Below the pieces are notes generated by a model. That model saw only the letters and a program-made list of their open reading frames with translations. It did no database searches and was not told where the DNA came from. A stretch of DNA of 33,914 nt from an uncultured Microbacterium sp. GTDB taxonomy: Bacteria > Actinomycetota > Actinomycetes > Actinomycetales > Microbacteriaceae. This document shows, piece after piece, positions 2,535 to 18,519 of this stretch. Position 1 is the first letter of the stretch, and every line of letters begins with the position of its first letter. Location: assembly GCA_947647645.1 (NCBI GenBank), contig CANSLE010000003.1, positions 1-33,914 on the forward strand, in the 5' to 3' direction. The translations under genes and the position numbers were made by a program.

Positions 2535-2606
2535 GCCCCGATAGCTCAGTGGCAGAGCACTTCCATGGTAAGGAAGGGGTCGTCAGTTCAATCCTGACTC
2601 GGGGCT
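2535..2606 (+). tRNA. tRNA-Thr (anticodon GGT)
   Basis: A complete cloverleaf can be drawn: acceptor GCCCCGA/TCGGGGC, D stem GCTC/GAGC, anticodon stem CTTCC/GGAAG with loop ATGGTAA (anticodon GGT), and T stem GTCAG/CTGAC around TTCAATC. The discriminator is T and CCA is not encoded. It is followed 35 nt later by tRNA-Met on the same strand, a pairing common in actinobacteria upstream of rpmG and the hadAB genes. Confidence 0.95.
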
Positions 2607-2641
2607 CGCAGCATCCACATCTCGCCGTGTGGGTGCGGCGC

Positions 2642-2718
2642 GGCGGGGTAGCTCAGTTGGTGAGAGCGCACGACTCATAATCGTGAGGTCGCGGGTTCAA
2701 GCCCCGCTCCCGCTACCA
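2642..2718 (+). tRNA. tRNA-Met (anticodon CAT), CCA encoded
   Basis: Acceptor GGCGGGG/TCCCGCT (G-T pairs at both ends), D stem GCTC/GAGC, anticodon stem CACGA/TCGTG with loop CTCATAA (anticodon CAT), T stem GCGGG/CCCGC around TTCAAGC, discriminator A and encoded CCA at 2716-2718. The paired first position and the neighbouring tRNA-Thr fit an elongator Met tRNA, though a lysidine-modified tRNA-Ile cannot be formally excluded. Its 3' half is also read on the opposite strand as the end of the recombinase frame, which makes it the probable insertion site of the island that follows. Confidence 0.93.
2675..2718. other. probable attachment-site junction inside tRNA-Met
   Basis: Read on the minus strand, the 3' half of tRNA-Met encodes the last residues of the serine recombinase frame (VAGAGLEPATSRL), whose stop lies in the anticodon loop. 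A terminal peptide of this kind arises when an integrase gene lies directly against the tRNA gene used as attachment site. I found no second copy of the tRNA 3' end elsewhere in the window, so the other attachment site is either lost or outside. Confidence 0.5.
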
Positions 2719-3911
2719 AACTAGTCATACTCGAACAAATGACCTTGAGATAAAGGTCCAGGCGTTCGACATAAGAAGCGTCGGAGATCTCTCCGGCGCT
2801 TTTCGTGTTGGTGGGCGTGTGGGAGCTGTTGAGGGCGGCGTCGCGGATGTCGGCGACGAGCGGCTGGAACTCGCGACCGACGTGGAGAAGGTGGCCGTCG
2901 TCGTCGACCCAGATGCGGCCGAAGAAGGCGGCGAGGAGCTTGCGCTTCACCGCCCCGGTCGCCGCTGTGAAGAGGGCGTCGGGCCTGGCCATCAGGTCGA
3001 GGTAGCTGAGGACCATTTCGGTGCGTTGTTGGAGTGACTCAGTGGTGGTGTCGAGGCCGGTGCGGACCTCGTGTTTCTTGATCTGGAGGTTGCGGAGCCG
3101 GGAGCGGAGCTTGTCGGTGGGGAGCGCACCGTCGGCAGCGAGATCGACGAGGCGTTCTTCTTGTACCTCGAGCTTCTTCAGCTCCTTCTGAAGGCAGGCG
3201 CGCTGCTCCTCCTGGCGAGTCAGGATGTGGCGCAGTGCCGCCTGGACTTCCTCTTTCGCGGTCTCAATGGACTCGGGGGAAAGACGCAGACTGGCGAACT
3301 CGCGGGTGAGGGCGCGTTCGATCTACAGTGACGGGAGGAACGGCAGGTCGCAATGACGGTCCTGTCTACCCCGGCATATGAAGTACTCGTAGATCTGATC
3401 GGCATGGTTCTTGGCCTCGGTGAAGATGAGGCGGTGCTCCTGGCCGACGTCGTGGCAGCGACCGCAGTGCAGCATGCCGCGGGCGAAGTGGTTGTGGACG
3501 CGGTCACGCTGTCCCCTCTTCACGCGGGCATCGATCACCTGTTGCACGCGGTCGAAGAGTTCGGGCGTGATGGGTGCTTCGTGCCTGCCCGGATAGAGGT
3601 GGCCTTTGAAGGTGACCATGCCGAGGTAGTACGGGTCGCGGAGGATCATGCCGAGTTGGCTGCGAGAAAGTGGCCGCTCCGGCCACTTCGTGGACTTCCT
3701 TGTGGTGAGGCCCTGTTCGGCGAGCATCGCGGCAAGCTTGGTAGTGCTGTACTCACCGGTTGCGTACTGCTCGAACGCCCACCGGATCAGCGGGGCACGC
3801 TCTTCGTCGATACCGATGGTGTTGACGAGACGTCCGTCGAAGTCTTTGCGGGCGTTGGTGTAGCCGAGTTTGGCGCGACCGACCGTGCCGCCGTTCTTCG
3901 CGTTGTTGAGG
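2675..3911 (-). pseudogene. serine recombinase (large resolvase/integrase), truncated and with a nonsense codon
   Basis: The minus-strand frame encodes the middle and C-terminal parts of a large serine recombinase: the recombinase domain (AKNGGTVGRAKLGYTN onward, then LSRSQLGMILRDPYYLGMV), a zinc ribbon with CGRC and CRGRQDRHC, a long charged coiled coil (KKLEVQEERLVDLA) and a tail ending inside tRNA-Met. The frame is interrupted once, by an in-frame TAG at 3323-3325; the 223-aa and 113-aa ORFs on either side are in the same frame, so this is a single nonsense change rather than a frameshift. The N-terminal catalytic domain with the nucleophilic Ser is missing beyond about 3911, where homology-like sequence stops. 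It cannot catalyse recombination. Its position identifies it as the former integrase of an element inserted at tRNA-Met. Confidence 0.85.
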
Positions 3912-4056
3912 GATAGAGCCGTCCTCACGAACGTGCTCTTCCACCGGTCGCTCGCGCACCACCCTCTACATTCACGACCATGCCTCGTTCGCATTCAGCA
4001 GTTCAGACAGAGAGCATTCCCCGTTCCCTGGCCGCATGTGTGAAGGAGGACATCTC

Positions 4057-4725
4057 ATGGTGCAGGGCATCATCATCCCCGCATCGGAATCGAAGGCAGT
4101 GGTCTGCGCCGAGTTCGCGACGCTCGAGGACTACCAACGACTGGTCGGCGGCTGGATCGAAGCGGTCGACATTCCAGTTCTCAATGCGACGATGTACGTC
4201 AACGAAGAAGGGCCGCTTCGGGGGCTGCCGTTCAACCGGCGTGCCACCTTCCCATTGTGGTTTCACGTGCCCGCAACTCGTGGCCGCGCGCGGCTTGTCG
4301 ACAACGCGGTACCGGTCGGGGGTGGAGAGACCGCTGGCAACCGCACCGACCTGTCGACCGCGGTATCGCAACTGCTCCTCGGGCACGGGGAACACAACGT
4401 CAGCACCCGCGAGCCGGGTGGTACGCGGTGGCGATCCGAGCCGGAGCCGCACGAGGACTATCTCGAAGCGATCATCTGGGCCACGGTGCTTCAGGAGTAC
4501 GCGCCAGGCCCGCAGGTCCGTGAGCGCCCGGTCGACGACAACTACGAGAAGCAGCGACACTCCGCACATAGCGGTGGGCACCGCAGGAATGCGAGTCCTA
4601 TGTCGGTATCCACCGCCTTTTCGATATGTGGCGCGATGACAGTTCACGCACGCCGGTCAGCCGGAGGGTCGCGCGGACGATCAGTTGGGTCAGCAAAATC
4701 GAAGCACGCCCGGCTGTGCGGCTAG
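4057..4725 (+). CDS. DUF3846 domain protein with an unusual C-terminal extension
   Basis: A 222-residue protein. The first ~150 residues match the DUF3846 family in pattern (MVQGIIIPASESKA at the start, then YVNEEGPLRGLPFNRRATF, and EAIIWATVLQEYAPG near residue 145). DUF3846 proteins are small proteins of unknown function typical of actinobacterial plasmids, phages and integrated elements. I chose ATG 4057 over the track start 4036 because AAGGAGG at 4043-4049 lies 7 nt before it. After RERPVDD the last ~60 residues are basic, Ser/Gly-rich and shadow-like, suggesting the original stop was lost or the frame shifted, with read-through up to just before the ISL3 insertion. It belongs to the mobile island; no biochemical role can be stated. 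Confidence 0.7.
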   Translation: MVQGIIIPASESKAVVCAEFATLEDYQRLVGGWIEAVDIPVLNATMYVNEEGPLRGLPFNRRATFPLWFHVPATRGRARLVDNAVPVGGGETAGNRTDLSTAVSQLLLGHGEHNVSTREPGGTRWRSEPEPHEDYLEAIIWATVLQEYAPGPQVRERPVDDNYEKQRHSAHSGGHRRNASPMSVSTAFSICGAMTVHARRSAGGSRGRSVGSAKSKHARLCG

Positions 4726-4750
4726 CACCCTCAGTTGGAGGTACGCGGGG

Positions 4751-4758
4751 GTGTTCGG
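4751..4758. repeat. 8-bp target-site duplication, left copy
   Basis: GTGTTCGG directly abuts the left inverted repeat of the ISL3 element and is repeated exactly at 6216-6223 beyond the right end. Eight base pairs is the usual duplication length of the ISL3 family. Confidence 0.9.
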
Positions 4759-4782
4759 GGCTCTTCGGACATTCGGTGGGGT
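4759..4782. repeat. ISL3 left terminal inverted repeat (24 bp)
   Basis: Begins GGCTCTTCGGACATTCGG; its complement matches 6192-6215 at 23 of 24 positions. Confidence 0.92.
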
Positions 4783-4872
4783 GAGGCTCGCCGGGTGAGG
4801 TTCGAGGGGTAGGGGTCGAGGTCCCCGAGGATCAGAAGCGCTAACTCTCTGATCGACTACGAGGACCTCGAC

Positions 4873-6192
4873 GTGCTTCACCCTACTTCGGGGTGCGCTG
4901 ACGCGCGCTCCGCCTTCTGCCCCTGTCCCCGCTGCGACGTTCTGCTCGGCTTGGAGGGCGTCCATGTCGAGCACGTCGACCGCCGAGACGCACTGCTGAT
5001 CGTGACGGTCTCAAGCCCCGCGTTCCCGACGGGGTGCCCGTCGTGTGGGGTCCTCGCGGCCGGCGGCGGGTGCCGAAGCCGGGTGCTCCATGACGTGCCC
5101 GGCGTATCGCGAGTGCGGATCGTATGGCGGCAGCGGACATGGCGATGCGTCGACGAGGGCTGCGAGCGGAAGGCGTTCGTGGAGCAACTGCCGACTCTGG
5201 TCGCTCGGCGCGGGTCAATCACCAAGCGAGCCATCGACTGGGCGGTCGGGCAGTTGCGGCGCGAGCATGCCACAATCGCGGGACTTGCCCGTCAGCTCGG
5301 AACGTCATGGAAGACGGTGTGGCGCGCCATCGAGCCCGAGCTGGTGCGGCTCGCGGCTGACGAGTCCCGGTTCGATGGCGTCACCACGCTCGGTGTCGAC
5401 GAGCACGTCTGGCATCACGTCGACCCCCGTACGCGCGGCCCGAAGGAGCTGACCGGGATGGTCGATCTGTCCCGTGACAGTCGCGGAAAGACGCGGGCCA
5501 GACTGCTCGACCTCGTGCCGGGCAGATCGGGGAAGGCCTACGCAACTTGGCTCGGTGCACGCGGCGACGCGTTCCGAAACAACGTGAAGGTCGCCGCGTT
5601 GGATCCGTTCGCCGGTTACAAGACCGCGATCGACGACAAGCTCGACGACGCCGTCGCGGTCCTCGATGCGTTCCACGTCGTCAAGCTCGGCACCGCCGCC
5701 GTGGACGAGGTCCGCCGCCGGATCCAGCAAGACACCCTCGGGCATCGCGGCATGAAGGGCGACCCGCTCTACGGGATCCACACCATCCTCCGCGCCGGAG
5801 CCGAGAACCTCACCGAGAAGCAGCGGCTCAGGCTGGCAACGGCGCTCGAGGCCGACCCCGCGCACGACGAGGTGTTCATCGCATGGCAGTGCGCACAGCA
5901 GCTGCGTTCCGCCTACCACCAGAAGGACCTCACCGAGGGGCGACGCATCGCGGAGAAGGTCGTCGAGTCGTTCCACAGCTGCCCGATCCCCGAGATCGCA
6001 CGCCTGGGCCGCACCCTCCGCCGCTGGCGCGACGCGTTCCTGGCCTACTTCACCACCAGCCGCGCGAACAACGGCGGCACCGAAGCCGTCAACGGGATCA
6101 TCGAGCTGCACCGCCGCCTCGCCCGCGGCTACCGCAACCGGCACAACTACCGCCTCCGGATGCTCCTCGCCGCCGGCGGACTCACCCCATGA
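4873..6192 (+). CDS. ISL3-family transposase
   Basis: A 439-residue transposase of normal family length. The N-terminal region has a zinc-finger-like CPSCG (C55, C58) with later WRCVDEGC, followed by a helix-turn-helix region (ATIAGLARQLGTSWKTVWRA, near 135-155) that would bind the terminal repeats. The DDE catalytic core shows TLGVDEHVWHH, VAALDPFAGYKTAI and the C-terminal TEAVNGIIELHRRLARGYRN. The GTG start at 4873 follows a GAGGA ribosome site; upstream in-frame starts are not better. The gene fills the element and ends inside the right inverted repeat. Nothing in the sequence suggests inactivation. Its last 22 codons are the segment found degenerate beyond the arsenic cluster. Confidence 0.93.
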   Translation: MLHPTSGCADARSAFCPCPRCDVLLGLEGVHVEHVDRRDALLIVTVSSPAFPTGCPSCGVLAAGGGCRSRVLHDVPGVSRVRIVWRQRTWRCVDEGCERKAFVEQLPTLVARRGSITKRAIDWAVGQLRREHATIAGLARQLGTSWKTVWRAIEPELVRLAADESRFDGVTTLGVDEHVWHHVDPRTRGPKELTGMVDLSRDSRGKTRARLLDLVPGRSGKAYATWLGARGDAFRNNVKVAALDPFAGYKTAIDDKLDDAVAVLDAFHVVKLGTAAVDEVRRRIQQDTLGHRGMKGDPLYGIHTILRAGAENLTEKQRLRLATALEADPAHDEVFIAWQCAQQLRSAYHQKDLTEGRRIAEKVVESFHSCPIPEIARLGRTLRRWRDAFLAYFTTSRANNGGTEAVNGIIELHRRLARGYRNRHNYRLRMLLAAGGLTP

Positions 6193-6215
6193 CCCCACCG
6201 GATGTCCGAAGAGCC
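6192..6215. repeat. ISL3 right terminal inverted repeat (24 bp)
   Basis: ACCCCACCGGATGTCCGAAG... mirrors 4759-4782 with one mismatch. The transposase TGA (6190-6192) touches its inner edge. Confidence 0.92.
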
Positions 6216-6223
6216 GTGTTCGG
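6216..6223. repeat. 8-bp target-site duplication, right copy
   Basis: GTGTTCGG, identical to 4751-4758, directly outside the right ISL3 end. Confidence 0.9.
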
Positions 6224-6675
6224 CAGAGCGGCGATTCTGGGCTACCGCTCCCGCGGTTCCCTTCCGACCCTGACCCTGCCCCTGACGTCCGGCGCAAGTA
6301 CACTCGATGAGGCGCAGTCCTCGAAGTGGAGTTTCAGTGCTCACTCGCTTGAGCGTTCGTGCCCCCGCTGGGCCGGGCTGCTCCTTTGCCCCGTGCGCAT
6401 GGACAAACGCGCCCGACATCGCTCGGGGAGTGACTTCGGCGCGCGTTCCGTCCGGCGCCCCTTCGCGCCTGGAGAGTCTTTTTTCGCAGTTCAGTGGTAG
6501 TTTTCGTCGACGCAACAGGACTGACATCGCATCGATACCCATTCAGCGAACTCTTATGTCGCGCTTCGAATGTGTTCAGCCATGGAACTTTCGGTCGATG
6601 GCTCACGGCGCTAGGTTCGAAATGAAAGTTCACGACGCCTTCTTACGAAATCACCATTCATCATTGAGGGGTAAT
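6224..6675 (+). other. non-coding stretch upstream of the neuB operon
   Basis: About 450 bp between the ISL3 element and neuB. The ORF track extends the neuB frame back to 6307, but the added 123 residues are Arg/Ser/Pro-rich with no family resemblance, so I treat them as untranslated. The right half (6480-6675) is AT-richer than anything nearby (GTCTTTTTTCGCAG, ACTCTTATGTCG, CACCATTCATCATTG) and is where the operon promoter should lie, but I cannot name a convincing -35/-10 pair. GAGGGG at 6666-6671 is the ribosome site of neuB. Confidence 0.5.
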
Positions 6676-7737
6676 ATGCGTGCTTTGAAGATCGGATCGA
6701 CTGAAGTTTCTGACACTTCTCCGGCGTATGTAATCGCCGAGATCGGTCACAACCACGGCGGAGATCTCGCTGCCGCCAAGGATCTGTTTGTCGCCGCCGC
6801 AGAAGCAGGTGCATCCGCGGTAAAGCTGCAGAAGCGAGACAATCAGGGCCTCTTCACTAGGGAAATGCTCGAAAAGCCGTATGGCGGTCGCAATAGCTAC
6901 GGTGCAACCTACGGTGAGCATCGGCAGGCGCTGGAATTCGGTGAACGTGAGTATCGAGAGCTTGCGAGTCTCGCCGCCGAGCTAGGGATCGACTTCTTCA
7001 CCACCGCTTTTGATGAGGTGAGCCTGGACTTCATCGTGAGTCTCGGTCTTCCCGCAATCAAGATTGCCTCCGGGGATCTCACCAACTCGCCGCTGCTCGA
7101 AGCGGCCGGCAAGACCGGCGTGCCGGTCATCGTGAGCTCCGGTGGTGCAAACCTGTCGGACGTTGTGACCGCGGTGTCCGTTCTGGACGGTGTGGGCGCC
7201 AGCTTCGCTCTGCTGCAGTGCACGGCCACCTATCCCGCACAGCCTGAGCAGCTGAATCTTAGGGTAATCGATACCTATCGACGGCTTTTCCCGAACGCCG
7301 TGATCGGATACTCCGGCCATGACGTCCTTCCTACGGCGCCGATTGCGGCGTACACGCTAGGAGCCCGGGTAGTGGAGCGGCACTTCACCCTCGACAAGGG
7401 AGCTCCGGGGAGCGACCACCACTTTTCTCAAACCCCCGCTGAGCTGAAGGCGATGGTGGAGGATCTCGCCGTAGTGCGGGTGGCGCTCGGCTCCTCGGTC
7501 AAACAGCAGCTGCCCGAAGAAGCCCCGGCCCTGGCAAAGATGTCCAAAACGCTCGTCGTTCGCGGGAATCACCGGGCGGGTGCTGTTGTGGACCGGAGCA
7601 TGCTCGTTGCGAAGACGTCAGGGCGGCCGGGGATTCGCCCGGCAGCATTGGGCGAGGTCGTCGGATCACGTCTCGCTCGAGATGTTGAGGATGAACACGT
7701 ACTCCGGTTCTCAGATCTCGTGGATGCGACGGCGTGA
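6676..7737 (+). CDS. neuB: NeuB-type nonulosonic (sialic) acid synthase
   Basis: A 353-residue cytosolic enzyme expected to condense phosphoenolpyruvate with an N-acylated hexosamine (ManNAc or its 6-phosphate in known members) to a nine-carbon 2-keto-3-deoxy sugar acid. The TIM-barrel part shows IAEIGHNHGGD (20-30), AVKLQKR (48-54), KIASGDLTN (129-137), LLQCTATYP (179-187), IGYSGHD (210-216) and VVERHFTLDKGAPGSDHHFS (232-251), which include the metal and substrate residues of NeuB/NANS. Residues ~288-350 form the SAF (antifreeze-like) domain with the usual GRPGIRP. The start is ATG 6676, 4 nt after GAGGGG. It is the first of five overlapping genes; its stop overlaps the SDR start by 4 bp. 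No CMP-sialate synthetase or epimerase is adjacent. Legionaminate, pseudaminate or another sugar could be the product; family confidence is high, substrate unknown. Confidence 0.9.
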   Translation: MRALKIGSTEVSDTSPAYVIAEIGHNHGGDLAAAKDLFVAAAEAGASAVKLQKRDNQGLFTREMLEKPYGGRNSYGATYGEHRQALEFGEREYRELASLAAELGIDFFTTAFDEVSLDFIVSLGLPAIKIASGDLTNSPLLEAAGKTGVPVIVSSGGANLSDVVTAVSVLDGVGASFALLQCTATYPAQPEQLNLRVIDTYRRLFPNAVIGYSGHDVLPTAPIAAYTLGARVVERHFTLDKGAPGSDHHFSQTPAELKAMVEDLAVVRVALGSSVKQQLPEEAPALAKMSKTLVVRGNHRAGAVVDRSMLVAKTSGRPGIRPAALGEVVGSRLARDVEDEHVLRFSDLVDATA

Positions 7738-8519
7738 GCGCAGGAGCGCCGGTTGCGCTGATCACCGGCGCCGCCGGCGGCCTCGGGACGGGGATGTGTG
7801 AGGCGCTTCTCAAGCGGGATTGGAGGGTGCTCGCCCATGTCCGGAACGTCGAGCAGGGCCGACAGCTCGCTGCCGCGGGCGCGCATGTCCTGGCCGCGGA
7901 CCTAAGCTCGCGCACTCAGGTAAGGAGCCTTATCTCACATGTCCGACGAACGACTGCGCGGATCGACGTCCTCGTCAACAATGCCGCGCTCGGATACGGA
8001 GCTCCGGACATTACCAGGCAGGTGACGGAAGACGGCATTGAATCACGTCTCGCTGTGAACGTCCTCGCACCCCTCGCTCTCATGGAGGGACTCAAAGGTC
8101 TGCTAGGTAACGGGAGCCGTGTCCTCAATATGGCGTCGACCAATCAGGAGTTAGTCGACGTCGATGATCTTCAGCTGATCCGTTGTTGGAACCGTGAGGC
8201 CTCGTACCGACAGTCAAAGGCGCTCATGCTCGTCTTGACGCAGGTGTTCGCGGAGCGCTGGAAGCCTCTAAACGTGGCGGTGAATGCAATCCATCCTGGG
8301 ACCCGCTTGCCGACGAAGATCGTGTTGGAGAGCGGCGTCGAGCCCATGGGTTCGCTTGAACGCGGGATCGAGATTTGCGTGGATCAGCTATTGCAATCCG
8401 ATCCCGGCAAGGCGATGTTTGTCAGAGCAGGCGAGTTACCCGTGCGACTCGACGAGCTCTACCCCGTGACTGAGGAGGGGGAGGCGCTGGTCGCGAAACT
8501 GAAGGATCTTCTGGCATGA
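7734..8519 (+). CDS. short-chain dehydrogenase/reductase (SDR)
   Basis: A 261-residue NAD(P)-dependent oxidoreductase with a full SDR signature: cofactor loop TGAAGGLG (11-18), VNNAA (81-85), catalytic S135, Y158 and K162 (YRQSK), and HPGT at 188-191. Classical SDRs of this size interconvert hydroxyl and keto groups. The GTG start overlaps the neuB stop (GTGA), and its own stop overlaps the transporter start (ATGA), so translation is coupled on one message. In this context it probably oxidises or reduces a carbon of the sugar or sugar acid made by NeuB, before or after condensation. The segment between S135 and Y158 is longer than in typical classical SDRs, as in SDRs with unusual substrates. 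The direction of the reaction is not predictable. Confidence 0.85.
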   Translation: MSAGAPVALITGAAGGLGTGMCEALLKRDWRVLAHVRNVEQGRQLAAAGAHVLAADLSSRTQVRSLISHVRRTTARIDVLVNNAALGYGAPDITRQVTEDGIESRLAVNVLAPLALMEGLKGLLGNGSRVLNMASTNQELVDVDDLQLIRCWNREASYRQSKALMLVLTQVFAERWKPLNVAVNAIHPGTRLPTKIVLESGVEPMGSLERGIEICVDQLLQSDPGKAMFVRAGELPVRLDELYPVTEEGEALVAKLKDLLA

Positions 8520-9664
8520 CACTGAGTATCCGTGCGTGGGTCTCGACCAGGTTCTTGACGTTTTTTGTCAGCTGGGCGGTGTTCCAGTCCTACTGGGGCC
8601 TGTGGCTGGCGGACCGAGGCTTCTCGGTCAAGGAGATTGGCACTGCCGTCGCTTGTTCGCTGGTGGCGCGGTCCGTGACCGTCGCACTCATCTACCCAGC
8701 TTTGAACCGCCACGCGACACTGCTGAGGTTGAGCAGGGTGATGCCATGGTTGATCACAGCGGCCGCAGTCCCGTACATCGTCGTGACCGGCTTTCCCATG
8801 CTTGTTGTCGTCTCGGTGGTCTTCGGGCTGATCTACCCGATCATGTTGCCGCTCAACGAGACGGTCGCAACCGTCGCCGCGCGGCAGAAGCTGTTGCCGT
8901 ATGGGCCCACCCGGGCACTAGGCTCCGCTGGCTTCATGATCGGGACGCTCGTCGCGGGCTGGCTGGCCTCGGCACTTGGTACACCAGTCCTCGCTTACGC
9001 TCTTGTCGGATCATGTCTATTGATGGCGCTGATTGGCTTCATCCACCCTCGGGAAGCCGCGGCCCTCGATCTCCGAGGGTCCGGCGCGCACGGGTTCGTT
9101 GCTCTCTTCCGCAATCGTTCGTTCCTTGCCTGCCTGGCGATCGCAACGCTCGTGCAGGGCTCACACGCGGCGTACTACAGTTTCGGTGCGATACGTGCGG
9201 GAGAGATCTCCTCGCCGACCGTGGTGCCGTTGCTGCTTGTTCTCGCACCGCTCAGCGAATTCGCACTTTTCTCCCTGGCGCGTGCGAGGTTCGAAAGCCT
9301 TGGATACCAGTCGCTGTTCGCCATTGGTGCGCTGGTCGCCGCGGGACGGTGGGCACTTCTCGCCGTCGCCGGCAACTGGGAGCTTCTCGCCGTCTCCCAG
9401 CTCCTTCACGCCGGGTCCTACGCGACGACTCACATGGCATTCGCGATGTACGTCCGCGATCACATCGACGTCGACAACCAAGGCGCAGCGCAGGGGCTAT
9501 ACGCATCGCTCGCCATGGGGTTGGGCACCGCCGTGCTTACATTCGTCGCGGGGCAACAACTGAGTGCGAGTTTCTCCACTGCACTACTCACTATGGCGGG
9601 CGCAGCGGTCGTCAGCCTAATTTTCCTGCCATTGACCCGAGTCGACAGAAAGGCCGCCCCATGA
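8516..9664 (+). CDS. MFS transporter (MFS_1-like type)
   Basis: A 382-residue integral membrane protein with about eleven to twelve hydrophobic segments and short loops. The N-terminal WGLWLADRGFSVKEIGTAVA is the kind of first-helix/loop motif seen in the MFS_1-like group (HcaT phenylpropionate and nucleoside:H+ symporter relatives). A basic/acidic loop (IHPREAAALDLRG) separates the two halves. ATG 8516 overlaps the SDR stop and the last codons overlap the aldolase ATG, so it is an integral part of the operon. By context it moves the sugar acid or its precursor across the membrane; import and export are both possible from sequence. Export would make sense because the locus has NeuB but no activation or transfer enzymes. 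Confidence 0.82.
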   Translation: MTLSIRAWVSTRFLTFFVSWAVFQSYWGLWLADRGFSVKEIGTAVACSLVARSVTVALIYPALNRHATLLRLSRVMPWLITAAAVPYIVVTGFPMLVVVSVVFGLIYPIMLPLNETVATVAARQKLLPYGPTRALGSAGFMIGTLVAGWLASALGTPVLAYALVGSCLLMALIGFIHPREAAALDLRGSGAHGFVALFRNRSFLACLAIATLVQGSHAAYYSFGAIRAGEISSPTVVPLLLVLAPLSEFALFSLARARFESLGYQSLFAIGALVAAGRWALLAVAGNWELLAVSQLLHAGSYATTHMAFAMYVRDHIDVDNQGAAQGLYASLAMGLGTAVLTFVAGQQLSASFSTALLTMAGAAVVSLIFLPLTRVDRKAAP

Positions 9665-10551
9665 CGCTGGATCTGACTGGCGCAAACACGCTCCTCGTGA
9701 CGCCATTCCACGCGGATGGTTCCATAGATGAACTCTCGCTCCGCCGACTCATCGACCATGTTATTGAGGGAGGAGCACGAGGCGTGATTCTGCTCGGTTC
9801 CACCGGAGAGTTCTTTTGTCTCACCCATGACGAGCGAATCCGTGTCACGCGGGCCGGGATCGCTCACGTCGCAGGTCGAGTCCCGGTCACCGTCGGTGTC
9901 GGTAGCGATGGTACCGCCGAAACCATCGAACTGACTGCCACCGCAGAGAATGCTGGCGCCGACTGCGTGATGGTCATTCCGCCCATCTATTTCGACAGCA
10001 GCGCCGATCCGCAGATAGCCCACTACACCGCCGTCGCCGCGTCGACGACGCTCGACGTGATGCTTTACGACGGATCAAACGGGATTCGTCTGACCGCACC
10101 GGTCCTTGAGCAAGCCAGCAGGCAGGCTCCGAACATCAAGTATGCGAAGATCGCCACCGCCGACCCCACTCTGTTCCGGATCTTCCGCGAGGCCGCGCCG
10201 AGCATCACCACAATCGTCGGAGAGGACATGATGCTGTTTCAGGGGTTACGAGCAGGCGGGAGAGGTTCTGCCACCGCGATCGGGAACATCTTGCCCCGTC
10301 AGATTGCCGCCCTACATCGGGCGCATGAGAACGGGGACGCCGAAGAGGCGTATCGGATCGCGACCTGGTTGTCTCCCGTCACGATGTTCCTGTCAGTACC
10401 CAAGGGAGGCTTCATCGCGAAGTTCAAGCACATCCTCGCGCTCGAAGGAATCATCGAGTCCGACCGGGTACGCGCCCCGCTCCTGCCCTTGACAGCCGAA
10501 GGAAGAGCGGAGATCGTCCAGGACGTCTTGCCACTTCTCGCCCGTGGATAG
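9661..10551 (+). CDS. DapA/NanA-family (class I) aldolase
   Basis: A 296-residue TIM-barrel enzyme of the dihydrodipicolinate synthase/N-acetylneuraminate lyase superfamily, which adds pyruvate to an aldehyde or cleaves the product. LLGSTGEFF (44-52) holds the carboxylate-binding GSTGE, MLYDGSNG carries Y136, and NIKYAKIATAD carries the Schiff-base lysine, best placed at K163. These positions match Y133/K161 of DapA. The Y-D-G-S-N-G segment differs from the YNVPGRTG of true DapA and the YNIPALSG of NanA, so neither substrate should be assumed. ATG 9661 overlaps the transporter stop by 4 bp. Its pairing with NeuB is odd because both families build or break 2-keto-3-deoxy sugar acids: it could recycle the product, make a second keto acid, or provide the aldehyde precursor. 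Confidence 0.87.
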   Translation: MTLDLTGANTLLVTPFHADGSIDELSLRRLIDHVIEGGARGVILLGSTGEFFCLTHDERIRVTRAGIAHVAGRVPVTVGVGSDGTAETIELTATAENAGADCVMVIPPIYFDSSADPQIAHYTAVAASTTLDVMLYDGSNGIRLTAPVLEQASRQAPNIKYAKIATADPTLFRIFREAAPSITTIVGEDMMLFQGLRAGGRGSATAIGNILPRQIAALHRAHENGDAEEAYRIATWLSPVTMFLSVPKGGFIAKFKHILALEGIIESDRVRAPLLPLTAEGRAEIVQDVLPLLARG

Positions 10552-11227
10552 TCGCAAAATCGAAGGAGTGCTCTTCGACCTCGACGACACGCTTCTGGAT
10601 CACAGTGGTTCCGCTAAGCGCGCCTTTAGCCAGTGGGCATGCGCGAACAGGATCCAGCCCACCTCGAAAAATTGGTCCCTTTGGCGTGAAACCGAGCATC
10701 GATTTCCGCCGGAACCACACAAGAGCGTCCCCATGTCCCGTACTCGGACGAAACGAATGCAGGCGTTCTTGGCAGCCGTGCTTCCGGGGTCCGCGACATC
10801 TTCAGACCGGAATCTCCTGAAGCTCTACGACGACTACCTCCTTCGGTACAGCGAAAGCTGGAGTCTTTATCCCGACACTCTCGACTCGTTGGATCTACTA
10901 CGCGGCAGATTCCGGCTGGGGATTCTCACCAACGGCGCGACACTTATGCAGCGAAGAAAACTACGCCGCACCGGATTGAACAGCCGCGTCGAGTTTGCGC
11001 TGATCTCCGAAGAGATCGGGGTTGCGAAGCCGGCCCCAGAGGCCTTCATCATCGCGTGTGACCGGTTACGACTCCGCCCCGACGCAGTCTTGTACATCGG
11101 AGACGATCCGCAGATTGATGTCGACGGAGCCCGCAACGCAGGTCTGCACAGCACGCAAGTCCTACGAAAGACCGCCGCAGGACCAACGGCGCTACGCGAC
11201 TTGTGCGAATCCCTCTTGAAGACATAG
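10544..11227 (+). CDS. HAD-superfamily hydrolase (probable sugar phosphatase)
   Basis: A 227-residue haloacid-dehalogenase-type phosphatase of subfamily IA. Motif I is FDLDDT (nucleophile D12, acid D14), motif II is LTNG (128-131), motif III is K162 in GVAKPAPE, and motif IV is GDDPQIDVDGA (186-196). An alpha-helical cap occupies about residues 17-105. The closest functional analogues by architecture are the Neu5Ac-9-phosphate phosphatases (NANP), which remove the phosphate left when the synthase uses a 6-phosphorylated hexosamine; that match is an inference from context. The GTG start overlaps the aldolase gene by 8 bp and the gene ends the operon. The small hairpin AGGGC-GAT-GCCCT just after the stop (11226-11238) is too weak to call a terminator. 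Confidence 0.86.
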   Translation: MDSRKIEGVLFDLDDTLLDHSGSAKRAFSQWACANRIQPTSKNWSLWRETEHRFPPEPHKSVPMSRTRTKRMQAFLAAVLPGSATSSDRNLLKLYDDYLLRYSESWSLYPDTLDSLDLLRGRFRLGILTNGATLMQRRKLRRTGLNSRVEFALISEEIGVAKPAPEAFIIACDRLRLRPDAVLYIGDDPQIDVDGARNAGLHSTQVLRKTAAGPTALRDLCESLLKT

Positions 11228-11340
11228 GGCGATGCCCTGTCGCAGCAGAGATGCTCGGCCTGCAAGCCCCCGAGGGTTCGGTGCGAAAGCGGTGCTCGGA
11301 CACGTATCGGCCAACACCAGCGTGGCTCGTTCAGTGACTC

Positions 11341-11656
11341 TGACTCGCCCCGGCATGTGCGGAGACATGATTCCTTGGAAGGATCTGTCTCATGGGACGT
11401 CCCAGTAAGTATCCGCGCGAGCTTCGTGAGCGCGCTGTCCGTATGGTCGCCGAGGTGCGGTCCGACTACTCCAGTGAGTACGCGGCGATGACCGCGGTCG
11501 CGCAGATGCTCGGCATCGGGTCGCCGGAGACGATCCGGACGTGGATCCGCCGCAATCAGGTCGACGCCGGCGAACGCCCCGGTATCAGGACCGAAGCATC
11601 GGAGGAGATCAAGCGGCTCAAGCGGGAGAACGTGGAACTGCGGCGGGCGAACGAGG
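11341..11656 (+). mobile_element. left-end remnant of an IS3-family element
   Basis: TGACTCGCCCCGGCATGTGC at 11341 resembles an IS3-group terminal repeat, and a ribosome site (GGAAGGA) plus the first part of orfA follow. The element breaks off at about 11656 where IS30-type sequence begins; no right half is present in the window. Confidence 0.6.
11392..11656 (+). pseudogene. IS3-family transposase orfA, truncated
   Basis: The first ~88 residues (MGRPSKYPRELRERAVRMV, then GIGSPETIRTWIRRNQVDAG and the leucine-zipper-like EEIKRLKRENVELRRANE) are a standard IS3 OrfA: a helix-turn-helix followed by a coiled coil. After ANEV the frame runs on to 11919 in the ORF track, but those residues are a shadow of the inserted IS30 gene. 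The OrfB catalytic part is absent. The fragment cannot support transposition. Confidence 0.8.
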
Positions 11657-11726
11657 TGGCGGATTCAACCGGTCAGCGCAATGGGTGCTGTGAGATGAAG
11701 CAGACGCTGATCTCGGGAGGCATCGG

Positions 11727-12177
11727 TTGCAGGGCAAGCATGGTCATCTCAGTCGCGAGCAGAAGCAGCTCGCGATCCGTCTCCACTCGAAGGGGTGGCG
11801 TCTCATCGACATCGCCCGCGAAGTCGGCTGCACGGCGCCGATGGTCGGGAAGATGGCCCGGGAGGGGCGTCACCTCGATGCGAAGCCGTTCGGGTGGGAG
11901 CCGCGGGAGGGGCATCTGACGGTCCTCGACCGCGAGCAAATACTCGTAGGGCTTGCCCGCGGTGACACACTCACCGCGATCGCGCGCAGTCTTGGGCGGG
12001 GCGGTGTCGACCGTCAGCCGCGAGGTCAAGCGCGGCGGCGGACGCGACGGGTACTCGGCGTGGCGGGCGCATGAAGACGCGCGTGAGCAGGCGCGCAGGC
12101 CGAAGCCATTCAAGCTCGACGGCGGCCGGCTACTCCATGCCGTGACCGCGGAGTTGGAGAAGCTATGGTCACCGCAG
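11727..12177 (+). pseudogene. IS30-family transposase, N-terminal fragment with a frameshift
   Basis: Residues from MQGKHGHLSREQKQLAIRL through DIAREVGCTAPMVGKMAREG and ILVGLARGDTLTAIARSLG are the double helix-turn-helix N-terminus of an IS30-type transposase. The frame then shifts at the G-run near 11998-12001: one extra G separates the end of the first frame (SLGR) from the continuation in the next frame (VSTVSREVKRGGGRDGYSAW). The second part continues to KLWSPQ and is cut at 12178 by the end of the minus-strand IS3 element. The DDE domain is missing. The left boundary is around 11658, where the upstream IS3 orfA stops. Confidence 0.8.
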
Positions 12178-12201
12178 GGGTCTGCCGCACCGGCAGGTGA
12201 C
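12178..12201. repeat. IS3 terminal inverted repeat (24 bp), orfB side
   Basis: Exact reverse complement of 13422-13445; lies 9 bp beyond the orfB stop codon. Confidence 0.92.
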
Positions 12202-12210
12202 GGTTTGTAG

Positions 12211-13089
12211 TCATGCCGCGAGGGCGATGTTGGTGTTCATGATTGCTTCGTGCTCGATGGGGGTCAAACCGTGCAGCCGTTTCTGGCGGCGGCGTCGGTG
12301 GTAGGTGCGTTCGATCCAGGTGACGATGGCGATGCGGAGCTGTTCGCGGGTGTCCCAGGATTGCCGGTTGAGGACGTTCTTTTGCAGCAGGCTGAAGAAC
12401 GACTCCATCGCGGCGTTATCGCCCGCCGCGCCGACGCGGCCCATCGATCCGACCATCCCGTGGTGGTGCAGAGCGCGGACCATCTTGCGGGCGCGAAATT
12501 GCGATCCTCTGTCGGTGTGGACGACGCAGCCTGCGACGTTCCCGCGCCTGGCGACGGCGTTGCCCACCGCGTCGACGGCGAGACGCGCTTTCATCCGGTC
12601 GCTGATCGAGTAGCCCACGATCCGATTCGAGAACACGTCCTTGATGGCGCAAAGGTAGAGCTTGCCTTCCGCGGTCTTGTGTTCCGTGATGCCGCTGAGC
12701 CAGAGCCTGTTCGGGGCGCCCGCGGTGAACTCGCCACGCACGAGATCGTCGTGAACGGGCGGGCCGGGACGTCGGCCCTTCCCACGACGACGCTTGCCGA
12801 ACGTGGACCACCAGCCGTTGTCGCGACAGATCCGCCACGCCGTCCGCTCGGCCATGACCTCACCCGCGTCGCGGGCCTCGTCGAGCAGGAACCGGTAACC
12901 GAACTCCGGATCGTCGCGGTGCGCGTCGAACAGCGCGTTCGCACGATACGCCGCGATGAGTTCGGCATCGGTGATGGGGTTCGCCAACCACCGGTAGTAG
13001 GGCTGGCGAGCGAGCTTGAGCACCCGGCACGTCACCGCGACGGGAACACCGTCAGCGGCGAGCTCGGTCACGAGCGGGTAAAGCCTTTT
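12211..13089 (-). CDS. IS3-family transposase OrfB (rve core), first catalytic Asp replaced
   Basis: About 292 residues made by -1 frameshifting from orfA, entering near RLYPLVTELAADG. It has the HTH_21 segment (ALFDAHRDDPEFGYRFLLDE) and the integrase core with VVHTDRGSQFRARKMV (second Asp) and GDNAAMESFFSLLQKNVL (Glu). Where relatives read WLTDITEH this copy reads WLSGITEH: the first Asp of the DDE triad is Gly (codon GGC, complement of 12691-12693), a single-base change from GAC. The protein should therefore be catalytically dead. The track ORF extends to 13251 only because that frame is open behind orfA. The rest of the protein is full length, so the substitution is probably recent. Confidence 0.88.
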   Translation of the reverse strand, partial: KRLYPLVTELAADGVPVAVTCRVLKLARQPYYRWLANPITDAELIAAYRANALFDAHRDDPEFGYRFLLDEARDAGEVMAERTAWRICRDNGWWSTFGKRRRGKGRRPGPPVHDDLVRGEFTAGAPNRLWLSGITEHKTAEGKLYLCAIKDVFSNRIVGYSISDRMKARLAVDAVGNAVARRGNVAGCVVHTDRGSQFRARKMVRALHHHGMVGSMGRVGAAGDNAAMESFFSLLQKNVLNRQSWDTREQLRIAIVTWIERTYHRRRRQKRLHGLTPIEHEAIMNTNIALAA

Positions 13090-13376
13090 CCCGGCAGGTT
13101 CGCCTGCGACAGATACGCCGCCGCACGCCGCAACACCTCGACCTCCTGCTCGAGCAACCGGATCCGCTTTCGCGCCTCCCGCAGCTCGGCACCTTCGGAC
13201 CGCGTCACACCCGGCTTTGCACCATCCTCGACGGCGGCACGCCGCATCCACTTCGTGAGCGTCATCGGGTGAACACCGAAGCCGGCCGCGATCTGCTCGA
13301 TGGTCACTCCGGGCTCGCGGTTCCTGGCGACACGCACGACGTCGTCACGGAACTCACTCGGGTAAGGCTTGGGCAC
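13068..13376 (-). CDS. IS3-family transposase OrfA
   Basis: A 102-residue DNA-binding subunit: helix-turn-helix (EQIAAGFGVHPMTLTKWMRR) followed by a leucine-zipper-like segment (ARKRIRLLEQEVEVLRRAAAYL). I chose GTG at 13376 (MPKPYPSEFRDDVV) over the longer TTG start at 13409 because GGAAGGA lies about 8 nt before it and because family members start there. It overlaps orfB; the frameshift site GGGAAAAGG (complement of about 13084-13093) lies in its last codons. Confidence 0.88.
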   Translation of the reverse strand: MPKPYPSEFRDDVVRVARNREPGVTIEQIAAGFGVHPMTLTKWMRRAAVEDGAKPGVTRSEGAELREARKRIRLLEQEVEVLRRAAAYLSQANLPGKGFTRS

Positions 13377-13421
13377 AATGACATCCTTCCAGGGCACCCC
13401 TCCGGGCAACCCAACTCAGAT

Positions 13422-14000: not shown

Positions 14001-14077
14001 CGTTGTCGCGCCGCCTGGGATCAGAGACTACGTTGCGAGCCGGCGTTTCGGAGAGCAACGTCCGGTCTATATCAATG

Positions 14078-14359: not shown

Positions 14360-16003
14360 CTAGTAGTACACGCCGACCGCCTTCTCTGAGGTCGCTGAGG
14401 CGAGCCAGGCGATCGAGTCCCGCCGTCCCCACGCATAGAAGGCGACGGAGATCGCGGCCACCAGTGCCGAGTCCCACGGCCCGGCGATCGTGTTCGACCC
14501 GCCGAATGATCCGAGCGCGGAGGCGGCGAGGATGAACGCCATATACGCGACGAACCAGACGCCGCGCAGGAGCAGACGAGCGGTGAACACCTCGCGGTCG
14601 CGCATCATCACGAAGACCGCGATCGGGATCGAGATCGCGAACAGGACGATGCCGAGCCACACCTGGTTCCACCCCGACCAGAACAGGACGAGTCCGGAGA
14701 TCACGAACGAGATCGGCGCCACGATGCGCATGGACCGTCCCATCCAGGGTCGCGCCTTCAGTCGAGGGTCGTGGTTGCTGACGCCGGCGGCCACGGCGAT
14801 GACGGAGTAGCCGACGGCGAAGAAGAAGCCGAGCGATGCGACGAGACCCTGCCACGACTGGAAGATGAACAGGAACACGAGCGAGATCGCCAGGTTCACC
14901 ACGAGCGCGTGAGCGGGGATCCCGGTGCGTTCGTTCACCTTCGCCACCCACCGCGGCAGAAGCCGCCCTTGCGCCATGCCATAGGTCTGACGCGCGCCGA
15001 GCCCGATGCCGAGGAGCATGCTTCCGGCGGGGGAGACGACGGCGTCGACCAGCAGCAGCTGCGTCAGCCAGCCGAGGCTCAACAGACCGGCCAGCTGCGC
15101 GAACGGCGAGGCGAAGTTGATTCCGCTCCAGCCGCCCTCCGACAACAGTCCGGAGGGGACGGTCCAGATGTAGGCGGACTGCAGCAGCACGTACACGAGG
15201 AACGCCGCACCGAACCCGACGAATGTGCCGAGGGGAATGTTGCGACGGGGGTTCTCGGCCTCGCCCGCCATGACGGCGGCAGTCTGGATGCCGCCGAACG
15301 AGTAGATCATGCCCGCGCCGATCACGGCGCTGAGAACGCCGGCGCTCCCGTAGGGAGCGAAGCCGCCGCCGGTCGTGACGTTCGACGCATCGAAGCCGGA
15401 GGCCAGCAGCAGCACGATGGTGATCAGCGGGACGACGATCTTGAAGATCGTGATCGCGTTGCTCACGCGCGCCATGAGGACGACCCCGAACCAGTTCAGC
15501 GCGGTGAAACCGACGAGCACGACCGCCGCGATGATCAGCCCTACCGTGCTCAACTTGCCGTCTGCGACGAGCCCCGGCCACCAGTTGCTCGCGTACTGCA
15601 ACAGTCCGGACGCCTCGCTGGGCAGCCCGAAAGCGGTCTGCAGCAGGAGAACCCAGCCCATCATGATGCCCATGAACGGGCCCGACAACATCGATGGCCA
15701 CCGTGTGTTGCCGCCCGCGATCGGGCGGGTCACGCCGAGCTCGATGAAGGTGAGACCCACCATCGCCGTCGCGACGGCTGCGATGACCCAGGAGACGAGC
15801 GCCGCAGGCCCGGCCATGCCGGCCGCATAGTGCGCCGCGAAGAGCCAGCCCGAGCCCACCATCCCGGTGAAGGTGAGGAGGGCGAGGGAGAGCCAGCCGA
15901 CACGGCGTTTGAAGTTCCGGTCCTGATCGTCGATGACGGCCGAGGTGAGGGTGACGGTGGAGGAGTCGTCGCCGGCGAAGCCGGGCGCAGGGGCGTGAGA
16001 CAT
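14360..16003 (-). CDS. APC-superfamily amino acid permease
   Basis: A 547-residue inner-membrane transporter with about 12 hydrophobic helices. The first helix holds the substrate-binding Gly-rich segment (LALLTFTGMVGSGWLF), followed by ELGVTRPIAGGNTRWPS, and a later helix has IYSFGGIQTAAVMAGEAENP, typical of amino acid/polyamine/organocation permeases. The charged N-terminus (~45 residues) is cytosolic. I start at ATG 16003 (MSHAPAPGF), preceded by GAAAGAG, instead of the longer track ORF at 16084, whose extra 27 residues run through the promoter region. It is divergent from a YheO/PAS-type regulator and a MalY/PatB-type lyase, which suggests that it imports the lyase substrate, perhaps a sulfur-containing amino acid. 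Substrate is inferred. Confidence 0.88.
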   Translation of the reverse strand: MSHAPAPGFAGDDSSTVTLTSAVIDDQDRNFKRRVGWLSLALLTFTGMVGSGWLFAAHYAAGMAGPAALVSWVIAAVATAMVGLTFIELGVTRPIAGGNTRWPSMLSGPFMGIMMGWVLLLQTAFGLPSEASGLLQYASNWWPGLVADGKLSTVGLIIAAVVLVGFTALNWFGVVLMARVSNAITIFKIVVPLITIVLLLASGFDASNVTTGGGFAPYGSAGVLSAVIGAGMIYSFGGIQTAAVMAGEAENPRRNIPLGTFVGFGAAFLVYVLLQSAYIWTVPSGLLSEGGWSGINFASPFAQLAGLLSLGWLTQLLLVDAVVSPAGSMLLGIGLGARQTYGMAQGRLLPRWVAKVNERTGIPAHALVVNLAISLVFLFIFQSWQGLVASLGFFFAVGYSVIAVAAGVSNHDPRLKARPWMGRSMRIVAPISFVISGLVLFWSGWNQVWLGIVLFAISIPIAVFVMMRDREVFTARLLLRGVWFVAYMAFILAASALGSFGGSNTIAGPWDSALVAAISVAFYAWGRRDSIAWLASATSEKAVGVYY

Positions 16004-16083
16004 GGGAGCTCTTTCGTTCGGGTGGCGCACGTCCGACGCTGGACGACGCTCGAGTTTGCTGCAACAGTCAGTGGATGCCATCA

Positions 16084-16122
16084 ACTATGTGTTAATTTCG
16101 ATCAAGGTATCAACAGGAAATT
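16084..16122. promoter_or_regulatory. divergent promoter/operator region between permease and regulator
   Basis: A sharply AT-rich patch in a GC-rich region. Toward the permease, TTGATA (complement of 16108-16113) and CATAGT (complement of 16084-16089) are 18 nt apart and make a good promoter. AATTTC (16094-16099) and GAAATT (16117-16122) form an inverted repeat overlapping it, a candidate binding site for the divergently encoded regulator. Toward the regulator, TTGAAT (16121) and TAATCC (16143) are a weaker pair. Confidence 0.45.
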
Positions 16123-16197: not shown

Positions 16198-16929
16198 ATG
16201 GCGAGAGCGCGCACCTCTGTCCGCGACACCGCGTCGGAGTCGTTCGACGAGCGCACGTTGCTCGTCCGCGCACTGGGCGAGCTGGTCGATGCTCTGGGTG
16301 CGGCCCTGCCGCCGGGCAGCGAGATGCTCGTGCACGACCTCGCGAAACTGCCGAACTCGGTCGTTGCCATTCACGGGGACCTGACCCATCGGCGCATCGG
16401 CGACCCGGCGACCGATCTGCTGCTCGCCGCTGCCCGCCGGGGCGATCTGCAGACCCGGGTCGGCTACGAAACCCGCCTGGCGGATGGGCGCCGGCTCCGC
16501 TCGTCGACGGTCATCGTGCGCGGGTCCGACGGCGAGCCGCTCGCCGCCGTATGTCTCAACAGTGATCTGTCGGTATGGGAGAGCATCCACCACCTCTCCG
16601 GGCTCATGCTCGCCCCCGTGAGCCTGCCCGCGCCCGGCGACGACTCCTCGGCCGACGCCTCGGAGGAGCTCTTCACCTCCGACGTCGACGAGCTCGCGCT
16701 CCACCTCATAGAGCGGGCGACGGCGGCATCCGGCATCCCGATCGAGCTCATGCGCAAGAAGCACAAGATCGAGATCGTCCGCGAGCTGGAGAGCCGCGGG
16801 TTCTTCATGCTCAAGGGTGCCGCTGACAAAGCGGCATCCGCCCTGCGGGTCAGCCGCTTCACGATCTACAACTACCTGAACGAGATCTCCGACGGCTCGG
16901 ACGCCGTCGCCGAGGAGGGGACAGCATGA
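16198..16929 (+). CDS. YheO-like PAS domain transcriptional regulator
   Basis: A 243-residue regulator. Residues ~20-130 form the YheO-type PAS-like domain (LGELVDALGAALPPGSEMLVHDLAKLP is cut here as ALPPGSEMLVHDL, then SVVAIHGDLTHRRIGDPATD and GEPLAAVCLNSDLS). Residues ~175-235 form the C-terminal helix-turn-helix (IELMRKKHKIEIVRELESRG, ADKAASALRVSRFTIYNYLN). Proteins of this build usually sense a small molecule and control an adjacent amino-acid uptake or catabolic gene. The start is ATG 16198, after GAGAGGGAG; the track start at 16138 adds residues from the promoter. Its stop overlaps the lyase start (ATGA), so the two are co-translated, and it faces the permease across the AT-rich operator region. 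Confidence 0.85.
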   Translation: MARARTSVRDTASESFDERTLLVRALGELVDALGAALPPGSEMLVHDLAKLPNSVVAIHGDLTHRRIGDPATDLLLAAARRGDLQTRVGYETRLADGRRLRSSTVIVRGSDGEPLAAVCLNSDLSVWESIHHLSGLMLAPVSLPAPGDDSSADASEELFTSDVDELALHLIERATAASGIPIELMRKKHKIEIVRELESRGFFMLKGAADKAASALRVSRFTIYNYLNEISDGSDAVAEEGTA

Positions 16930-18095
16930 GCGATTTCGCCCGCCGCGTCGACACGACGACCATCGAGCACCTGCGTGCGACCGGCGCGACCAAGTGGTCC
17001 GCCGCCGACGACAGCATCGGTGCGTTCGTCGCGGAGATGGACTTCGGCATCGCGCCGCCCATCACCGCCGCCCTGCACCGCGCGGTCGACGACGGCGCCT
17101 TCGGGTATATGCCGAAGAGGATCGCCGCGGACCTCTCCGAGTCGACCGCGGCCTTTCTCGAGCGCCGCTACGCCTGGACGGTCGCGCCGGGCGACGTCTG
17201 GCCGATCCCGGACGTCATCATGGGGCTCGAGCTGGCGATGGAGCATTGCTCGCGCCCGGGATCGAAGATCATCGTGCCTACGCCGTCCTACATGCCGTTC
17301 CTCATGGTGCCGCCGATGCGCGGCCGCGAGGTCATCGAGATGCCGCTCGCCGTGCGAGAGGGGCGCTACGAGTTCGACCTCGACGCGCTGCAGCGGGCGT
17401 TCGACGACGGCGGTGACCTGCTCCTTCTCTGCAACCCGTACAACCCCGTGGGCCGCGTGTTCGAGCGTGCGGAGCTCGAGGCCATCTGCGCCGTGGTCGA
17501 CCGCAACGGCGGGCGGGTCTTCTCCGATGAGATCTGGGCGCCGCTGGTCTACGACGGGTCGGCCCACGTGCCGTACGCGAGCATCTCGCCCGTCGCCGCA
17601 CAGCACGCGATCACGGCGATGAGCGCCTCGAAGGCGTGGAACCTCCCCGGCCTGAAGTGCGCGGAGCTGGTGCTCACGAGCGACCGCGACCGCGAGACGT
17701 GGGAGCGCATCGGTCCGTTCTCCGGTCACGGCACCAGCAACCTGGGCGCGATCGCGAACGCGGTCGCCTTCCGCGAGGGCGATGAATGGCTGCGAGAGCT
17801 CGTGCCGTACCTGCAGGCGAACCGGGACGCGCTGCTCGACCTGCTCGGGCAGGAGGTGCCGGGCGCCTGGATGCCGCGTCCCGAAGGCACCTACGTCGCC
17901 TGGATCGACTTCCGTGACGCGGGCGGGGGAGAGCGGCCCGCGGAGCTCTTCCTTCGTGAAGCGGGGATCGGGCTGACGGAGGGCACGATGTGCGGCGCCG
18001 TCGGCGCGGGCTCGGCGCGCCTGATCTTCGCCACGCCGCGGCCGATTCTGGAGCAGATCGTGCGATCGCTCGGCGCGTCGCTTCGCGCCAGGTGA
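16926..18095 (+). CDS. MalY/PatB-type PLP-dependent C-S beta-lyase
   Basis: A 389-residue fold-type I aminotransferase-family enzyme. The N-terminus (TGATKWSAADDSIGAFVAEMDF) and NPYNPVGR (170-177), DEIW (201-204) and SASKAWNLPGLK with the PLP lysine K236 identify the MalY/PatB subgroup, which splits L-cystathionine, cystine or S-conjugated cysteines into thiol, pyruvate and ammonia rather than transaminating. The C-terminal arginine that holds the substrate carboxylate is in the ARLIFATPR segment. The start overlaps the regulator's stop. Together with the divergent permease this forms an import-sense-degrade unit for a cysteine-type substrate. A plain aminotransferase role is the main alternative. 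Confidence 0.85.
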   Translation: MSDFARRVDTTTIEHLRATGATKWSAADDSIGAFVAEMDFGIAPPITAALHRAVDDGAFGYMPKRIAADLSESTAAFLERRYAWTVAPGDVWPIPDVIMGLELAMEHCSRPGSKIIVPTPSYMPFLMVPPMRGREVIEMPLAVREGRYEFDLDALQRAFDDGGDLLLLCNPYNPVGRVFERAELEAICAVVDRNGGRVFSDEIWAPLVYDGSAHVPYASISPVAAQHAITAMSASKAWNLPGLKCAELVLTSDRDRETWERIGPFSGHGTSNLGAIANAVAFREGDEWLRELVPYLQANRDALLDLLGQEVPGAWMPRPEGTYVAWIDFRDAGGGERPAELFLREAGIGLTEGTMCGAVGAGSARLIFATPRPILEQIVRSLGASLRAR

Positions 18096-18120
18096 TCTCG
18101 ATGCCCTCGCCGCTCGTCGC

Positions 18121-18519
18121 TCAGCGGGCGAGGAGCGTCTTCTGGATCTTCTCGGAGACGGAGTCGCGCAACGGACGCACCGCATCGGCGTCCCAGGACT
18201 CGGGATTCGGGAAGGACCACTCCAGCACCTCCCCGCGCGGCGTGGATGGGAGGGTGAGGCCCGGCTTCATGAGGACCACCACATCTGCCTGGTCGAGGTC
18301 GTCCGACGTGACCGCGCGAGGCACCCGGTCGCTGATGTCCATGCCCAGCTCGGCGACCGTCGCGGCCACGGCGGGGTTCACCTCGCCCGCGGGAGAGAGC
18401 CCCGCAGACGTGGAGGTGAACCGGCCTCCGGCGAGGTGTTCCAGGAGGGCGGCGCCGAGTTGAGAGCGTCCGGCATTGTGCTGGCAGATGAACAGGACGA
18501 TCGGAGTAGTGTCAGTCAT
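18121..18519 (-). CDS. arsC: arsenate reductase, LMW-PTP type with a single cysteine
   Basis: A 132-residue protein with the low-molecular-weight phosphatase loop ICQHNAGRS (C12, R18) near the N-terminus, STSAGLSPAGEVNP and DISDRVPRAV in the middle, and WSFPNPESW at the end, typical of arsenate reductases. It reduces As(V) to As(III) in the cytosol. C12 is the only cysteine, so it lacks the second and third Cys of the thioredoxin-coupled type; that fits the actinobacterial mycothiol/mycoredoxin-linked class described in Corynebacterium. It lies 18 bp downstream of the ArsR-ArsC fusion and is probably co-transcribed with it. Confidence 0.9.
   Translation of the reverse strand: MTDTTPIVLFICQHNAGRSQLGAALLEHLAGGRFTSTSAGLSPAGEVNPAVAATVAELGMDISDRVPRAVTSDDLDQADVVVLMKPGLTLPSTPRGEVLEWSFPNPESWDADAVRPLRDSVSEKIQKTLLAR

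Follow-up and report, generated by a model that had tools for sequence, protein, structure and literature searches.

Why should the gene of a large serine recombinase (LSR) run antisense into the 3' end of a tRNA gene and take its last codons from it? The question arose from a window of 33,914 nucleotides in which such a frame borders an island; it makes up the whole of contig G000:C3 in a draft genome of Microbacterium (374 contigs, 81% complete). The features at this border are as follows.

2535..2607 (+): tRNA-Thr(GGT), called by ARAGORN
2642..2718 (+): tRNA-Met(CAT), called by ARAGORN; the target gene, intact
2675..3910 (-): LSR remnant, recombinase and zinc-ribbon/coiled-coil part only, with its stop inside tRNA-Met
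2694..2700 (+): B half-site motif GGTTCAA, the tRNA T-loop, 15 nt from N73/C74
2712..2716 (+): predicted crossover zone, tRNA positions 70-74, shared letters CTAC
2731..2737 (+): P' half-site motif TCGAACA, 15 nt from N73/C74
2778..2803 (+): intrinsic terminator of the tRNA strand, within the recombinase tail
3323..3325 (-): in-frame TAG

A dead integrase remnant at tRNA-Met

A first-pass annotation of this DNA had described a defective recombinase anchored at tRNA-Met, and its reading of the frame was borne out. The minus-strand frame ends in ...SLVAGAGLEPATSRL*, with the stop at 2675, within tRNA-Met. The reported TAG is present in frame; relatives have Glu at this codon, and the TAG could be an assembly or sequencing error. 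The N-terminal catalytic domain, said to be lacking, is indeed absent: the sole Pfam domain of the window copy is PF07508 Recombinase (E=2e-14), and Pfam detected no Resolvase (catalytic) domain in it. Positions 2678-3910 align with residues 263-670 of the intact LSR of Microbacterium sp. T32 at 80% identity and with no frameshift. Since the alignment starts at T32 residue 263, the window copy has lost residues 1-262, which include the catalytic serine domain. A search for the missing domain elsewhere in the assembly matched only a different LSR at tRNA-Val. L290 (G000:C177), an LSR of the same clade that appears intact, reads into tRNA-Val(TAC) in the same genome and is 31% identical to the window remnant. 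The window copy is therefore a dead remnant and not an active LSR, the missing N-terminus alone being sufficient, whatever the status of the TAG.

A fixed motif geometry across nine tRNA isotypes

A genome scan yielded 41 related loci, and where the contig continues nearly all of them reach the 3' end of an opposite-strand tRNA gene. A tRNA gene lies at the 3' end of the integrase gene (int) in 51 distinct related loci, almost all of which read into it, with nine isotypes targeted (Met, Lys, Pro, Val, Gln, Ala, Arg, Ser and Glu). Loci without a full tRNA mostly carry a tRNA 3' fragment in the same geometry, which is the result of later insertions into the same tRNA. Many family members are intact, and L054 and L056 sit at the same tRNA-Met in other Microbacterium genomes. 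The tRNA-derived ending, which had been regarded as odd and as a source of spurious annotations, is rather the normal C-terminus of intact LSRs of this family in the integrated state. Of the 30 best-scoring PF07508 loci in a sample from the class, 7 had a tRNA at the int 3' end.

On the tRNA strand, the loci share one geometry: the T-loop GGTTCRA, 15 nt, N73/C74, 15 nt, and TCGAACC. The motif TCRAACC stands at exactly +15 with at least 6 of 7 letters matching in 41 of 51 loci and at least 5 of 7 in 46 of 51; the expectation from shuffling is 0.125, and neighbouring offsets gave none. The window belongs to this T-loop LSR clade, as positions 2694-2737 carry GGTTCRA and TCRAAC, each 15 nt from the boundary at the tRNA. 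Among 161 other tRNA genes used as controls, only 6 carried the signature, and all 6 adjoin an LSR or an LSR remnant. A tRNA-Ala (L139, G026) and a tRNA-Ser (L141, G359) with the signature both adjoin LSR remnants; the motif is usable as a remnant finder.

The intact proteins L054, L056, L068, L071 and L082 combine Resolvase, Recombinase and zinc-ribbon domains, the zinc ribbon of L054 and L056 lying below the Pfam cut-off. The T-loop LSRs group as a single clade in a tree, separate from phiC31, Bxb1, A118 and TP901-1. LSRs at tRNA-Leu fall elsewhere, in another clade, and T-loop geometry was absent from them when checked. Four loci (L261, L263, L264 and L265) make up a separate LSR group at tRNA-Leu(GAG) with a different geometry. 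With this group, tRNA targeting by serine integrases has more than one origin.

Integration splits the integrase gene

We obtained attP by joining the two ends of integrated elements. Across the joint, the int frame runs on for 148 codons in T32, ASV49 and ASV81. The three C-terminal tails are mutually homologous, match HTH_58 and resolvase HTH_7, and represent a double helix-turn-helix (HTH) domain of ~148 residues. A profile built from them detected more tails in LSR genomes, and 11 further left/right pairs fuse in frame; in 6 of these pairs, the two halves share a contig and have the expected order and orientation. In total, 14 elements fuse in frame through attP into a homologous C-terminal domain, 9 on single contigs; the other 5 fusions join separate contigs of one genome, so that their pairing is less certain and the halves may not belong together. 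Two fusions (L083/L312 and L056/L310), whose right ends have a different, tRNA-Ala-type ending, were left out of the count. At the core, a single codon phase with an open frame is common to 48 of the 53 left halves, the remaining 5 having another phase. The in-frame fusions and the common phase place attP inside the coding sequence, so that integration splits int. Searches of viral contigs returned no relatives, and those of phages and plasmids returned only distant LSRs and no unsplit gene.

The HTH frame could instead be a separate gene, for example for a directionality factor, whose start lies near attP by chance. An HTH protein could serve in this role, and the integrated-state frame of ASV49 does offer possible start codons near the core. 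However, the phase is the same in 14 elements, homology starts at the P arm itself, and the first start codon in G009 comes 26 codons into the frame; we thus regard a separate gene as unlikely.

Nor is the antisense ending plausibly a chance open frame over the tRNA, annotated spuriously where an LSR and a tRNA gene are neighbours by accident. The antisense of the T-loop is open in 2 of 3 frames, such peptides are common around tRNA genes, and the peptide itself is not conserved between isotypes. Yet neither the single codon phase in 48 of 53 loci, the fixed motif geometry nor the homologous in-frame continuation beyond attP in 14 elements would follow from chance. This explanation, to which we give practically no weight, is already refuted by the phase conservation and by the homologous C-terminal domains of the fusions.

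Judged from these sequences, 'GAGLEPATSRL' is a scar: the tRNA-antisense peptide 'VAGAGLEPATSRL' takes the place of the double-HTH tail. The C-terminal HTH half had no match in the window's own assembly, which is 81% complete, and was lost or is unassembled. We infer the split of this particular element from its relatives, as its far end is missing.

Far ends carry a P arm rather than a tRNA copy

At the far end of the elements, the motif stands 20 nt from the core, compared to 15 nt at the tRNA end. The last letters of the P arm are those of tRNA positions 71-73, after which native-type flank follows, often with a tRNA terminator. P arms were located by this spacing-20 rule, a PWM scan being too noisy, and those with the motif at +20 were found in G009, T32, M. 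chelonae, ASV49, ASV81 and further elements. They lie at 36.2 kb in ASV49 and at 47,039 in ASV81, for element lengths of ~34.6 kb and ~44.4 kb, respectively.

The +20 spacing fits the 5-bp shift of the zinc-domain motif between attP and attB known from A118-family integrases (PMC3783163). This 5-bp rule holds only if crossover takes place ~2.5 nt inside the tRNA end, which would put the P and P' motifs 17.5 nt and the tRNA motif 12.5 nt away. The exact crossover, or core dinucleotide, is a prediction, and the zone marked in the window reflects attP/attL symmetry and the letters shared with P arms.

The first-pass annotation had proposed a second copy of the tRNA 3' end as the far mark. None was found in the window or the genome; these LSRs leave a P arm. 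A displaced tDNA fragment of the kind that defines an Islander-type tDNA island was likewise not found, and the island does not belong to that class. A 37-bp copy of the tRNA-Met 3' end in ASV81 at 69.5 kb (G358:C11:376476-376512, ~67 kb from tRNA-Met) was considered as the attR of the LSR and was displaced by the P arm at 47,039; it probably marks an older element beyond the LSR element.

Such copies bear on whether these are ordinary tyrosine-integrase tRNA islands with the LSR merely a passenger. Elements that leave long tRNA 3' fragments do use tRNA-Met as well (G029, G015, G022, G002), and the ASV81 copy would suit such an origin. The far ends of the LSR elements are P arms, though, directly followed by native-type tRNA terminators and with no long repeat; the LSR is in every case the gene that lies at the tRNA, and the six signature tRNAs predicted LSRs. 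We consider the passenger explanation very improbable.

At G007:C1 3352143-3356000, ~3.4 kb separate tRNA-Met from a P-arm-like sequence, with no LSR found between them. This stretch is perhaps a non-autonomous element or a remnant that uses the same att system.

The integrase tail supplies a tRNA 3' end and terminator

Native, element-free Microbacterium tRNA-Met copies mostly lack an encoded CCA, whereas occupied ones encode it; in the window, it lies at 2716-2718. The int tail of 31 of the 51 loci contains a strong intrinsic terminator of the tRNA strand, compared to 6 of 450 control windows taken from within int; on the opposite strand, none of the 51 tails has one. That the tail was kept, in the window and in a relative without the island alike, is best accounted for by the need of the tRNA for a 3' end and a terminator, a selective pressure that we infer.

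Decay of the island in the window

The LSR remnant marks the tRNA-side edge of the island, as had been proposed, and the close relative G416 lacks the island. There, ~94 bp of this int tail, with the frame unchanged, come after tRNA-Met, and the flank that starts at window position 18119 follows directly. This sets the island limits at ~2813-18118. An island-free relative already carrying the tail had been named as evidence against the recombinase reading. G416 is such a relative, but it leaves that reading standing; what it demonstrates is that persistence of the tail does not depend on the island. The island is ~15 kb long and composite, with the int remnant, IS3 pieces and the genes listed here, after which the native flank begins.

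4057..4725 (+): DUF3846 gene, homologue ~20 kb from int in the T32 element
4873..6192 (+): ISL3-family transposase
6307..11227 (+): cargo block with NeuB-like synthase, SDR, MFS transporter, DapA/NanA-family aldolase and HAD hydrolase
12211..13251 (-): IS3-type transposase (rve)
14360..16084 (-): amino-acid permease
16926..18095 (+): PatB-like C-S lyase, last island gene
18119..18519 (-): low-molecular-weight phosphatase gene, start of the native flank, which also adjoins tRNA-Met in G416

The DUF3846 gene is a relic of the original element. The cargo block possibly serves nonulosonic-acid metabolism; its NeuB-like synthase has a long N-terminal extension. Window positions 12.2-13.4 kb looked specific to the element but hold the IS3 transposase. 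In both the T32 and the ASV49 element, a coupling-type T4SS ATPase is encoded near int, along with defence-like genes.

The spacing-20 rule revealed no attR-type P arm in the window. The first-pass annotation had concluded that the island is fixed unless helped in trans. The integrase is dead, as it stated, but the wording was too mild: given that no attR-type P arm was found in the window and no C-terminal half in the assembly, the island is unlikely to excise as a unit even if helped.

A proposed T-loop-addressed, self-splitting integrase family

We consider it very likely that the feature in the window is the dead, integrated-state remnant of a tRNA-targeting LSR family that carries attP in its own gene. 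The circular element would encode, in order, the catalytic domain, the recombinase domain, the zinc ribbon with coiled coil, the P' arm, the crossover, the P arm and the double HTH. The T-loop of the tRNA gene would act as one attB half-site, read by the enzyme, probably through its zinc domain, and recombination would take place near tRNA positions 71-74. Integration would rebuild the tRNA 3' end, with the int tail supplying CCA and a transcription terminator encoded antisense to int. It would at the same time split int, moving the HTH part to the far end and leaving an N-terminal part that ends in the tRNA-antisense tail. The window would later have lost the N-terminus, ~20 kb of the element and the far end, while its tail was kept, probably since tRNA-Met depends on it. 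Of this scheme, the sequences themselves show the geometry, the split, the in-frame fusion, the terminators and the decay; the contact of the zinc domain with the T-loop, the crossover point, any functional effect of HTH loss and selection on the tail are proposals.

Self-altering integrases are known from other systems. In the tyrosine integrase of Myxococcus phage Mx8, attP lies within int, and a C-terminus of 112 residues is replaced by 13 residues with lowered activity (PMC4701971). The likeness lies in the att site inside int and the C-terminus exchanged on integration, and the window tail after the core also has ~13 residues; Mx8, however, uses an unrelated enzyme, a tyrosine recombinase, with no T-loop rule. 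The archaeal 'suicidal' integrases of SSV1, pTN3 and pT26-2 have their gene split by integration, and self-disrupting recombinases were stated to be exclusive to Archaea (review PMC8371274). Those enzymes belong to the tyrosine family, and the split cuts through their catalytic domain; the split described here removes only the HTH tail and leaves the catalytic part intact. In streptococcal rumA ICEs, serine integrases have att inside the gene and integration alters the C-terminus; their target is a protein gene, and PMC4701971 reports neither a double HTH nor a tRNA motif.

Serine recombinases at tRNA genes include Mycobacterium AICE integrases in tRNA-Leu and that of phage phiRSM (PMC3218068, PMC4471427), and such use of tRNA has been called rare, with the tRNA-Leu AICEs and phiRSM1 as named cases (PMC3218068). 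The tRNA-Leu LSRs of our sample differ in clade and are without the T-loop geometry. The A118 integrase, whose target is comK, lies outside the T-loop clade, and the sequence match to 4kis, used for comparison with the A118/LI integrase, is weak. The likeness to A118/LI consists in the LSR fold and the 5-bp P/B shift (PMC3783163).

A T-loop-addressed, tRNA-specific, self-splitting LSR family appears to be undescribed in the openly accessible papers that we searched. It contradicts the statements that serine integrases do not specify tRNA genes (Islander, PMC4383910) and that self-splitting is archaeal only (PMC8371274). Its single testable rule, which places a universal tRNA motif at a constant spacing from the 3' end, offers a way to map where serine-integrase islands begin and end; these limits normally escape detection because the common core is tiny (two to a few bases). 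The family also offers integrases with a portable tRNA address and accounts for the apparently spurious tRNA-antisense peptide at integrase C-termini.

More tentatively, and with less than even confidence, the split might act as a regulatory switch, in which the full-length enzyme with HTH integrates from the circle and the truncated form behaves differently, while the T-loop address eases moves between isotypes. With such a switch, the truncated integrated enzyme might be locked, for example, or competent for excision only with a partner, and small changes near the core could suffice for a change of isotype.

Several C-terminal HTH halves also occur in tandem (G009:C7 5010-8696, G369:C445 335776-339490 and G356:C5), which suggests stacked integrations and a possible swapping of int tails between elements.
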